The translations under genes were made by a program, and so were the position numbers. This document shows positions 34,638 through 38,572 of a stretch of DNA of 64,000 nucleotides, one piece after another. The notes beneath the pieces are model-generated. The model was given only the letters and a program-made list of their open reading frames with translations, was not told where the DNA came from and did no database searches. The stretch is from contig JAJZFJ010000043.1 in the NCBI GenBank assembly GCA_021805395.1, forward strand, positions 1-64,000, read 5' to 3'. Within the stretch, counting starts at the first letter, position 1. Each line of letters starts with the position of its first letter. Source of the DNA: a bacterium (lineage in GTDB: Bacteria; Armatimonadota; Chthonomonadetes; Chthonomonadales; Chthonomonadaceae).

Positions 34638-34745
34638 TACTTACTCCTGGTTCTGTGGCTCAGATATGCTGATTAAATCTATGTTACCTCCTTTTTTACT
34701 GAATCGATGTGCAATTTATTCAGATTTCGGATAGTAACATTTAAT

Positions 34746-36008
34746 ATGAATAGATCTATTCGAATAATGCACTTTGCTGATACGCATTTTGGTATCGAAA
34801 CCTATGGTAAAAATGATGTGACTGGCATAAACTCCAGACTGCAGGATTTCAAAAACTCCCTGGAGTGGGCTGTGAAATCTGCGATGGAAGAAGGGATTGA
34901 CATTGCAATCTTCGCTGGTGATGCCTACAAAAATCGTGACCCGAAACAGACGGAGCAGCGAGAATTTGCAAACTGTATAGCAAAACTAACCGAAGCCGAC
35001 ATTCCTGTAGTCATGGTGATGGGAGAACTGGATATGCCTGTATTAAGCGGTCGGGCAAGCTCCATCGACATCTTTGAAACATTACATGTATCCGGTGTTC
35101 ACATCTTTACTAAACCTGGCTTGAAAATTATAGAAACGCAAAATGGACCTATTCAAATTGCTGCCATTCCATACCAGTACAAATCCAGAATAGTTGACAC
35201 TGACAATAAGATTGATGATTCGACCTTGGATATGAAACAGCTTCTTGAAGCAGAGTATGCGGGAATTATTGAGCGTATTAAATCAGAACTTTTTGCTCAC
35301 CCAACAGCCCCAACAGTGCTAGCTGCGCATTTTTGGGCACAGGGGGCTGCGCTGTCTCAGTGGCAGGAGAGCTATCTGAATGAAGAGCTGGAACCTCAGA
35401 TTAATCTGAATGACTTAACTGATGAGACTTGGGATTATGTTGCACTTGGTCATATTCATACGTTCCAGAATCTAAACCCGGGTAAATCTCCCCCTGTCAT
35501 CTATTCAGGAAGTCCCTATGCAATGGACTTTGGTGAGACAGGTGAAAAGAAAGGCTTTGTTATTGCAAATGTACAAAAAGGCAGTGCAGATTACAAGTTC
35601 ATCCCGATAGGAGTTAACCGCCAATTTGTGGATATTGCAGTAAATGTTATGGGTGATGATCCCACGCAGGAAGTAGTGAGGGCAGTTCAGCAGCATAAAA
35701 TCAAGGGCCACATTGTACGACTTACTGTACATCTAAATAAAGCAGATCAGGTATTTCTGAATGATAAAGCCATTAGAGAGGCATTGTCATCATCTTTTCA
35801 CTTTACGTTAATAATGAAAACAAACAAGGATAAACGCACTGCTCCTGTCACTGTCTCTGATGGATTTTCTCCAGCCAAATCACTATCATCATACATCGAT
35901 TCTCAGGAAGGTCTTAAATCCAGAAAAGAGAGGTTAATGGAAGCGGCGGAGCGACTGATTTCAGAACTATCTGAAACAGAGGAGGCTAACATTAGTTGGT
36001 CCCTCTGA
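34746..36008 (+). CDS. sbcD: Exonuclease SbcCD subunit D (Mre11-like), altered catalytic motif
   Basis: 420 residues from ATG at 34746; a longer frame begins at 34707 without a clear site. Phosphoesterase motifs are DTHFG (residues 12-16), AGDAYKNRDP (57-66), AAHF near 200 and GHIH near 235. The third motif, normally GNHD, reads GELD at residues 93-96 (bases 35022-35033), losing the metal-binding asparagine and catalytic histidine. The following SSIDIFETL is typical of this SbcD subtype. SbcD with SbcC cleaves hairpins and DNA ends; this copy may have lost or changed nuclease activity. It overlaps sbcC by 13 bases. Confidence 0.9.
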   Translation: MNRSIRIMHFADTHFGIETYGKNDVTGINSRLQDFKNSLEWAVKSAMEEGIDIAIFAGDAYKNRDPKQTEQREFANCIAKLTEADIPVVMVMGELDMPVLSGRASSIDIFETLHVSGVHIFTKPGLKIIETQNGPIQIAAIPYQYKSRIVDTDNKIDDSTLDMKQLLEAEYAGIIERIKSELFAHPTAPTVLAAHFWAQGAALSQWQESYLNEELEPQINLNDLTDETWDYVALGHIHTFQNLNPGKSPPVIYSGSPYAMDFGETGEKKGFVIANVQKGSADYKFIPIGVNRQFVDIAVNVMGDDPTQEVVRAVQQHKIKGHIVRLTVHLNKADQVFLNDKAIREALSSSFHFTLIMKTNKDKRTAPVTVSDGFSPAKSLSSYIDSQEGLKSRKERLMEAAERLISELSETEEANISWSL

Positions 36009-38572
36009 AGTTAACGCTAAGCAATTTTATGAGTTACGGCACTCCGCCGGAGATTTTACCGTTAAACGAGATCCATGTTGCTTGTCTAAGTGGAGATAAT
36101 GGACATGGGAAATCTGCAATTATGGATGCCATTACCTGGGTGCTTTGGGGCAAAACACGCCTCTCGAGCACCGAGGAAGGCAATGATGACAATCTGATAC
36201 GGTTAGGTGCAGATAAGATGGAGGTTGTGCTGGAATTTACGACCGATGATGGCATTTTCCAGATTTCACGACGCAAAAAGAGAGGGAAAACTCCTTCACA
36301 ACAGGACTGGAAACTTGAAGAAAAGCTGGAAACAGGAGAATGGATAAAACGGTCTTCAAAACTTGGTGAAACTCAAGATCAGATAAAAAGTTTGATCCAT
36401 CTTGATTATGATACATTTCTGAATTCAGCCTATCTGAAACAGGGACAGGCTGATATGTTCACCAATCTGAAACCAGCAGCAAGAATAGATGTTTTAAGAG
36501 ATATTCTCGGCATCTCAAGGTACGACAAGCTGTCATCCATGGCTGTTGATAGATCCAGAGAACTTCAAACAGACATTCAAGACTATTCAGTACAGATTAA
36601 AACTCTGGAAAGCCAAATTGCAGACTCTCCGGATATTAATGCCCTGAATGATTTGAGCAGAAGATACGTAGAACTAGAAACTCAGATAGAACAGTTAAAT
36701 AGTAGAACCAGTACGCTTAAAGACAGTGTGTCTAAGCTTCTCATTCTTCAGCAGGACACCGTAAGACTTAATCTCGAAATTGAGAGACTATTACCGACAG
36801 AGAAACAGCTGCTTGATAAACAGAGTAGTGTTTCAGAAAAACTTGCACTCACTGAAAAACTTCTTGCATCCAAATCGGCGATCGAGCAGGACTATGCTAT
36901 GCTGCAAGCAGTTTCCGCAGAAATTCTCACTTTGGAACCTCAGCTTGACCAGCTACAAGCCAATAGGAACGATCAAAATGCGTTGGCCAGCACCATTAAG
37001 CAGGAGCAGATAAAACTGGAAGCTGAATTGAACCAGCTCAAAACGCAGATTGCCCACCAATCGAAACAGAGCAGTATTCTTGCAGCCCTTCAAAAGCAGA
37101 TTGATGAATGCAGTGCCATTATCAAGCGCGAGGAACGCTCTGGTATCCTACTTAGTGAGGCAGAAAAAAAGTATGCAGAAGAGCGAGATCTCTTTCAAGC
37201 CATGAAATCCCGTTCAGACAGGTTGAAAGAAGAGATGACAGAAATGCAGGAAGTTCTGGATCTCCTGCAAAAGGCCTCGGGAGAGTGTCCTACATGTGGC
37301 GCAGACCTTGAGGGTGAACTTAAGCAACAGGTGACCAACAGACAATTGGAAAAACAGATGCGTCTGAAGCAGGAACACGATGATTTGAGAGCAAAAGGAA
37401 TTGAGACAAAAAAAACAATTAACTCTCTGGAAAATGAGATTAAATCCTTGCGTGCACATTGCATGTCTGCAAATACTGCTACTGTCAGATTGAAAGCACT
37501 TTCAGTACAGTCCAGTGAACTCCAAAAGAGTATTCAAACGCTTGAATCTGACAAAAAATTAGAGCAGACCCTGGAAACACAACTCAATAAGGAAATGTAT
37601 GCACAGCCCTCCAGAATTAAGCTTAAAAGAATTGAGAAAGAGATTGCTGAATTGGAGCAGGTTGAAAATAAGTTACAAACAATGCGGTTACAGCGAGATT
37701 CGTTAGTGCCATGTATGGAGCGATTTCAACAGCTTAAAAGTGCTGATCAGGACTATTCCGGCACTATGGCAGAGTTTACAGAAATTATGAAAGATCTTCA
37801 GAAAGTGCAGACAGAAATTGATACCAAGCATAAAATCATCAAAACCTTGTCTGATCAGTTAGTGGATCTACCCAAGTTACAAATTGAACTTAAAAGAACT
37901 GAAGACGAATCCAAAGCTGTTCAGAAAGAGCGAGATGCACTAAATAGGCAAATTGGAAGCATACAAACCGCCGTGGATGCAGTGAATGCCGCAAGAACAA
38001 CCCTGAAGCAAAAAAGAGAACAGAGAAAACGAATTGATGAGGATAGAACCACATACATTGAACTGGCTAGAGCATTTGGACCAGACGGCATTCAGAGTTA
38101 CATTCTGGAAACAATGCTTCCTGAAATCGAAGAGGAGGCAAATTCTCTCCTGAGCCGCATTTCGGGAGGTGAAATGAGTTTGTCACTCACTATAAATCAG
38201 GTATCCAAAGTATTACATGGTAAGCAGAAAAGCACTTTAGAGATCACAATTTCAGATGCTCTTGGAACAAGACCATTCGAGATGTTCAGTGGCGGAGAGG
38301 CATTTAAAATAAGTTTTGCACTTCGAATCTCACTATCCAGGCTTCTTGCCTCCAGATCTGGTGCAAGATTGAAAATATTGATACTGGACGAAGGTTTTGG
38401 GTCTCAGGATGGCAAAGGTAGAGAGCGTCTGGTTGAGGCTATAGAAGCTGTGAAACAGGATTTCGAAAAGATCCTTCTGATTACTCATCTGGATGATTTG
38501 AAGAATGCCTTCAGCCAGAGGATTGAAATCTATAAAGACTCAACGGGATCACATATTCAGTTAATAGCCTAA
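35996..38572 (+). CDS. sbcC: Exonuclease SbcCD subunit C (Rad50-like ATPase)
   Basis: 858 residues starting at TTG inside the end of sbcD, with GAGGAGG about 10 bases before. Walker A reads GDNGHGKSA near residue 33. Long coiled coils flank a zinc hook CPTC near residue 430, and the C-terminal ATPase half has FEMFSGGEAFKISFALR near 760 and Walker B LILDEGF near 795. It is the SMC-like arm that tethers and gates DNA for SbcD. All ATPase motifs look intact, in contrast to the altered SbcD. Confidence 0.95.
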   Translation: MVPLKLTLSNFMSYGTPPEILPLNEIHVACLSGDNGHGKSAIMDAITWVLWGKTRLSSTEEGNDDNLIRLGADKMEVVLEFTTDDGIFQISRRKKRGKTPSQQDWKLEEKLETGEWIKRSSKLGETQDQIKSLIHLDYDTFLNSAYLKQGQADMFTNLKPAARIDVLRDILGISRYDKLSSMAVDRSRELQTDIQDYSVQIKTLESQIADSPDINALNDLSRRYVELETQIEQLNSRTSTLKDSVSKLLILQQDTVRLNLEIERLLPTEKQLLDKQSSVSEKLALTEKLLASKSAIEQDYAMLQAVSAEILTLEPQLDQLQANRNDQNALASTIKQEQIKLEAELNQLKTQIAHQSKQSSILAALQKQIDECSAIIKREERSGILLSEAEKKYAEERDLFQAMKSRSDRLKEEMTEMQEVLDLLQKASGECPTCGADLEGELKQQVTNRQLEKQMRLKQEHDDLRAKGIETKKTINSLENEIKSLRAHCMSANTATVRLKALSVQSSELQKSIQTLESDKKLEQTLETQLNKEMYAQPSRIKLKRIEKEIAELEQVENKLQTMRLQRDSLVPCMERFQQLKSADQDYSGTMAEFTEIMKDLQKVQTEIDTKHKIIKTLSDQLVDLPKLQIELKRTEDESKAVQKERDALNRQIGSIQTAVDAVNAARTTLKQKREQRKRIDEDRTTYIELARAFGPDGIQSYILETMLPEIEEEANSLLSRISGGEMSLSLTINQVSKVLHGKQKSTLEITISDALGTRPFEMFSGGEAFKISFALRISLSRLLASRSGARLKILILDEGFGSQDGKGRERLVEAIEAVKQDFEKILLITHLDDLKNAFSQRIEIYKDSTGSHIQLIA

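Follow-up and report, generated by a model that had tools for sequence, protein, structure and literature searches.

The window that we analyzed, a stretch of 64,000 nucleotides, harbors an sbcD open reading frame directly followed by sbcC (Table 1). An alternative in-frame ATG at position 34707 would extend the sbcD product to 433 residues. Scored against the SbcD profile TIGR00619, the window protein reached 113.9 bits, above the curated cut-off of 77.65. Its AlphaFold2 model, built with 38 sequences (pLDDT 88.8, pTM 0.80), contains a nuclease core, a capping region and two C-terminal helices (residues 376 to 385 and 388 to 419), and the nearest solved structure was that of E. coli SbcD (4lty_A; Z 31.4, rmsd 3.1, 330 aligned positions). 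Further matches included other Mre11/SbcD chains, among them those of E. coli SbcCD head complexes, as well as P. furiosus Mre11-H85S with branched DNA and manganese (3dsd). By this model, the protein would adopt the Mre11/SbcD fold with both its nuclease and its capping parts.

Table 1. Features of the sbcDC locus and of two further SbcD-like/ATPase gene pairs
Feature	Position	Strand	Remarks
sbcD ORF	34746..36008	+	420 aa; TIGR00619 above cut-off; AlphaFold2 model matches SbcD/Mre11 structures
SbcD motif I (D12-T-H14), intact	34779..34787	+	D and H kept in 45/45 readable others of the phylum
SbcD motif II (G58-D59), intact	34917..34922	+	D59 kept in 47/47 others
SbcD motif III (G93-E94-L95-D96, replacing GNHD)	35022..35033	+	47/47 other phylum sequences GNHD
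SbcD motif IV (H195), intact	35328..35330	+	H kept in 46/46 readable others
SbcD motif V (G235-H236-I-H238), intact	35448..35459	+	both H kept in 46/46 readable others
sbcC ORF	35996..38572	+	858 aa, TTG start; overlaps sbcD end by 13 bases
SbcC Walker A, GDNGHGKS (family GDNGNGKS)	36092..36115	+	N37H unique among 14 sequences
SbcC zinc hook, CPTC	37286..37297	+	motif inspection
SbcC signature motif, SGGE	38288..38299	+	motif inspection
SbcC Walker B region, LKILILDEGF	38369..38398	+	motif inspection
C80 pair (G000)	L133:3982-9286		419-aa SbcD-like, all five motifs intact, and 1346-aa ATPase
C266 pair (G000)	L132:2700-6463		375-aa SbcD-like and 879-aa ATPase

Codons 93 to 96 of sbcD read GGA GAA CTG GAT and align with the Gly-Asn-His-Asp of family members, so that GELD stands where the asparagine and the catalytic histidine of motif III (GNHD/E) are otherwise found. 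This confirms the earlier note, which had reported GELD in place of GNHD at these bases. The same note had counted four of the five phosphoesterase motifs as intact, and this is right in substance: motifs I, II, IV and V are complete, and the six remaining metal-binding or catalytic residues (D12, H14, D59, H195, H236 and H238) are all present. Judged from its sequence, the window protein is an SbcD by descent; we do not claim for it the status of an SbcD nuclease.

The codons GAA CTG lie at least four base changes away from any Asn-His codon pair, which rules out a single-base sequencing error as the source of GELD. Compensating indels, worked through by hand on the 12 bases, would seem to take about three events, which makes them no simpler than four substitutions. 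A sequencing error, which had been named as a possible refutation, is unlikely in any simple form, since at least four changes would have to fall within six bases.

The adjacent sbcC encodes a partner whose ATPase motifs and zinc hook are intact: the Walker A lysine and serine, the Q-loop glutamine, the CPTC hook, SGGE, Walker B and the H-loop are all retained. Its description as intact thus holds in substance as far as the core ATPase motifs are concerned. Three changes, N37H in the P-loop, R89Q and R771K, are unique to the window protein compared with 13 orthologues and are unusual for the family. An SbcC match was present downstream of sbcD in 16 of the 18 orthologous loci that we fetched (fragmentary or partial at L117, L121 and L131) and absent at L126 and L130, the latter ending inside sbcD. 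At L126 (G055 C41), no SbcC was found within 9.2 kb around SbcD, and sbcD may there stand alone or adjoin a diverged partner.

Upstream of sbcD, scanning for promoters and terminators returned one promoter-like site, no more than expected by chance. None of the defence-system models matched SbcD, and those that matched SbcC (LmuB, PbeC, mad3, JetC and others) seem to reflect the general resemblance among SMC/Rad50 proteins.

Motif III in related SbcD proteins

We searched 291 genomes of the phylum and found this SbcD type in 48 of them, the window's included, at E <= 1e-30; at the same threshold, it was missing from 4 of the 16 other genomes of the family. All 48 sequences had a readable motif III, which was GNHD in 47 and GELD only in the window. 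The 47 others encode Asn-His by AAC CAC (28 sequences), AAT CAC (8), AAC CAT (7) or AAT CAT (4), and every readable sequence retains the same six residues outside motif III, motif I being unreadable in two of the 47 and motifs IV and V in one. Two distant phylum matches outside this set harbor GNHS and have thus kept Asn-His as well.

Similarly, Asn-His was conserved in all 76 readable loci, three times as GNHE, among 80 loci from named genomes (Chloroflexota, Cyanobacteria, archaea and others) that had been found by patterns outside motif III; four loci without a readable motif III (L047, L102, L107 and L109) were left out. The two censuses overlap slightly, since L103 and probably L064 appear to be part of both. 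The alignment of orthologues, which the earlier note had proposed as a check, therefore gave GELD in no other member, ruling out a clade-wide change of motif III. Furthermore, no natural SbcD lacking the motif III histidine was recognized in the open-licence literature searched, as far as its accessible passages extend.

Two of the phylum orthologues, L168 (G225 C314) and L184 (G218 C489), carry one in-frame stop each (TAA and TAG), which could be errors or mark decaying genes. The SbcD proteins of one genus within the family (L018 and L019, from G011 and G001) have diverged much further and read GDAFHLQAP in motif II, with the catalytic residues all kept. In G011, the branches of both SbcD and SbcC are long, and the catalytic residues are nonetheless all present.

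Sequence constraint and further SbcD-like genes of the genome

We gauged constraint by leave-one-out comparisons, which for SbcD included the window's sequence and 16 orthologues, 17 in all (L130 and L134 were omitted as incomplete), and for SbcC the window's sequence and 13 orthologues. The window SbcD violates 4 of 55 otherwise invariant columns (N94E, H95L, V252I and A350S). The 16 orthologues violate 0 to 7 columns each, and the eight active-site residues are untouched in all of them. Two of the four violated columns thus fall among these eight residues, an enrichment that is not significant by itself (hypergeometric P = 0.097). In SbcC, 7 of 86 otherwise invariant columns are violated, including the one with N37H.

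As housekeeping controls from the same genome, we used NadC and TsaD and restricted the comparison to the eight genomes represented in every set. In SbcD, the window violates 7 of 77 invariant columns, and in SbcC 9 of 94, versus 6 of 94 in NadC and 8 of 117 in TsaD. Distances to the outgroup G042 were also compared, with and without G011, one of four family genomes, whose SbcD and SbcC branches are much longer than the window's. Leaving G011 out changed the distance ratio of the window SbcD from 1.09 to about 1.27 and that of SbcC from 1.02 to about 1.11, to be compared with NadC at about 1.36 and TsaD at about 1.18. Evolution in the window lineage is somewhat fast for each of the four proteins, and the window SbcD and SbcC appear to evolve at most mildly faster than NadC and TsaD, not clearly exceptionally, so that the genes look constrained. 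A general relaxation of sbcD is unsupported beyond the mild excess of violated columns.

The host genome (4.16 Mb in 319 contigs, 94.33% complete, with the window on contig C56) was also searched for a second sbcD, as the earlier note had advised. The protein search found no second copy of this sbcD, and it did reveal two other SbcD-like genes, each adjoining an SbcC/Rad50-like ATPase gene. The SbcD-like protein on contig C80 has a homologue in 7 of the 16 other family genomes (E <= 1e-20). No NCBIfam model matched its 1346-residue ATPase at E <= 0.001, and we take the pair to resemble the YhaO/YhaN kind. The pair on contig C266 occurs in 12 of the 291 phylum genomes, counting the window's own, and in none of the 16 other genomes of the family (E <= 1e-20). 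Its SbcD-like protein has DWQ in motif I (glutamine for histidine) and GDRH in motif V (aspartate for histidine), changes that partly recur among its relatives, the sub-family having glutamine or histidine in motif I and aspartate or histidine in motif V; its motif III is ANHD, and Asn-His is thus kept. Contig C266 plausibly belongs to the same organism, because its tsaD is 58 to 64% identical to the tsaD of the eight genomes of the same family in which this gene was found. Both pairs could have taken over cutting.

These data bear on whether the whole sbcDC locus is decaying, its function being unneeded as other nucleases serve and the active site being among the first losses. The patchy occurrence of this SbcD type, the in-frame stops of two phylum orthologues, the additional SbcD-like/ATPase pair found within the family in the window genome alone and the slight excess of violated columns in SbcD and SbcC over the controls all point in this direction. 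The family-unusual N37H, R89Q and R771K of SbcC, like this excess, speak against the clamp reading given below, in that mild relaxation may be at work. We nevertheless regard decay as unlikely: both reading frames are fully open (420 and 858 codons), the six other active-site residues are retained together with the hook, signature and Walker motifs, and overall divergence is in line with that of NadC and TsaD. Moreover, the number of base changes at the two codons implies time, yet neither a frameshift nor a stop has appeared. Because the other residues are sound and the divergence of SbcD and SbcC is not clearly exceptional relative to the controls, the loss appears to be centered on motif III and not to be part of an obvious gene decay, with mild relaxation possible.

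Probable function of the GELD complex and comparison with known systems

On balance, the SbcCD complex with GELD is probably a lineage-specific, nuclease-dead, ATP-driven DNA clamp. In an uncultured bacterium assigned through a relative to the family Chthonomonadaceae of the Armatimonadota, an ordinary chromosomal sbcD would have exchanged the asparagine ligand and the catalytic histidine of motif III for glutamate and leucine after the split from the known relatives. The complex would still bind DNA ends and cycle ATP through SbcC, and it may still hold metal ions, while phosphodiester hydrolysis would be lost. It could then act as an ATP-driven clamp or tether, the cutting of ends and hairpins being left to other nucleases, perhaps to the two other SbcD-like/ATPase pairs.

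We expect binding and ATP cycling without cutting because histidine mutants of homologues lose their nuclease and because leucine cannot replace histidine chemically. Indeed, E. coli SbcCD H84Q is described as nuclease deficient, with an ATPase decreased by about 15%, and served in DNA-binding assays (PMC6265447), and P. furiosus H85S is reported to be inactive as both exo- and endonuclease (PMC8007570). Similarly, fission yeast Mre11 H134S is presented as nuclease defective and as accumulating at breaks (PMC3169521). The earlier note had left open whether the complex is nuclease-dead, structural only or working by a different mechanism. Comparison with relatives and the histidine mutants favor a nuclease-dead complex, with ATPase and DNA binding as the functions likely kept, and no positive evidence was found for a different mechanism.

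Such a mechanism would mean a rewired active site, in which Glu94 replaces asparagine as a metal ligand and another residue or water stands in for the catalytic histidine, giving an altered or slower nuclease. Glutamate is chemically able to bind metal, and all other ligands are retained, for which a protein with a structural role alone would have no obvious need. Leucine, on the other hand, is unable to donate a proton, and no candidate replacement residue was identified. In known homologues, glutamine or serine at the same position is reported to abolish activity (PMC6265447, PMC8007570), and we consider rewiring improbable. In a metagenome-assembled genome of 319 contigs, 94.33% complete and the one genome of its genus in the comparison, these six bases could also have arisen as an artefact of assembly or consensus calling. 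We consider this just as improbable, since at least four in-frame changes lie here between ordinary flanking codons, neither reading frame has a stop or frameshift and the rest of the protein is that of a normal family member.

Beyond the nuclease-dead clamp as such, we tentatively propose, as a possibility that we hold with some doubt, that selection has maintained a natural, nuclease-free SbcCD as a clamp on DNA ends gated by ATP, and that an Mre11/Rad50-like pair acquired by the same genome now does the cutting. The relative shares of cutting and of holding DNA in the work of Mre11-Rad50 have long been in question and have been approached through engineered point mutations. A lineage that lost the catalytic histidine while its sbcDC stayed open would offer a naturally occurring example of a complex that holds DNA and does not cut it and, if our proposal is true, of an Mre11-Rad50 machine whose tethering and cutting functions have been separated by nature. 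The weight of the finding is limited by its coming from one metagenome-assembled genome.

Compared with the SbcD of known SbcCD complexes (TIGR00619; E. coli 4lty), the window protein shares the sequence family, the fold, four of the five motifs and an sbcC directly downstream and overlapping; it differs in having GELD instead of GNHD, and thus lacks the catalytic histidine and one metal ligand. The C80 and C266 pairs resemble sbcDC in that a phosphoesterase gene precedes an SbcC/Rad50-like ATPase gene. Unlike the window SbcD, the C80 protein keeps all five motifs, whereas the C266 protein has altered motifs I and V and ANHD as motif III.

Closest in their defect are the laboratory mutants E. 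coli SbcD H84Q, P. furiosus Mre11 H85S and S. pombe Mre11 H134S, which have lost the same catalytic histidine and in which ATPase, DNA binding or presence at breaks is reported to persist. These are, however, single engineered changes, while the window SbcD is natural and has its neighboring asparagine changed too. In VPS29 of retromer, Phe63 sits at the position of the motif III histidine. This protein, which has a calcineurin-like phosphoesterase fold, is described as an inactive rigid scaffold still able to bind metals (PMC3101248). Like the window SbcD, VPS29 occurs in nature and shares the wider phosphoesterase fold, and it is reported to be inactive; unlike SbcD, it belongs to another family, has another partner and works outside any ATPase DNA clamp.
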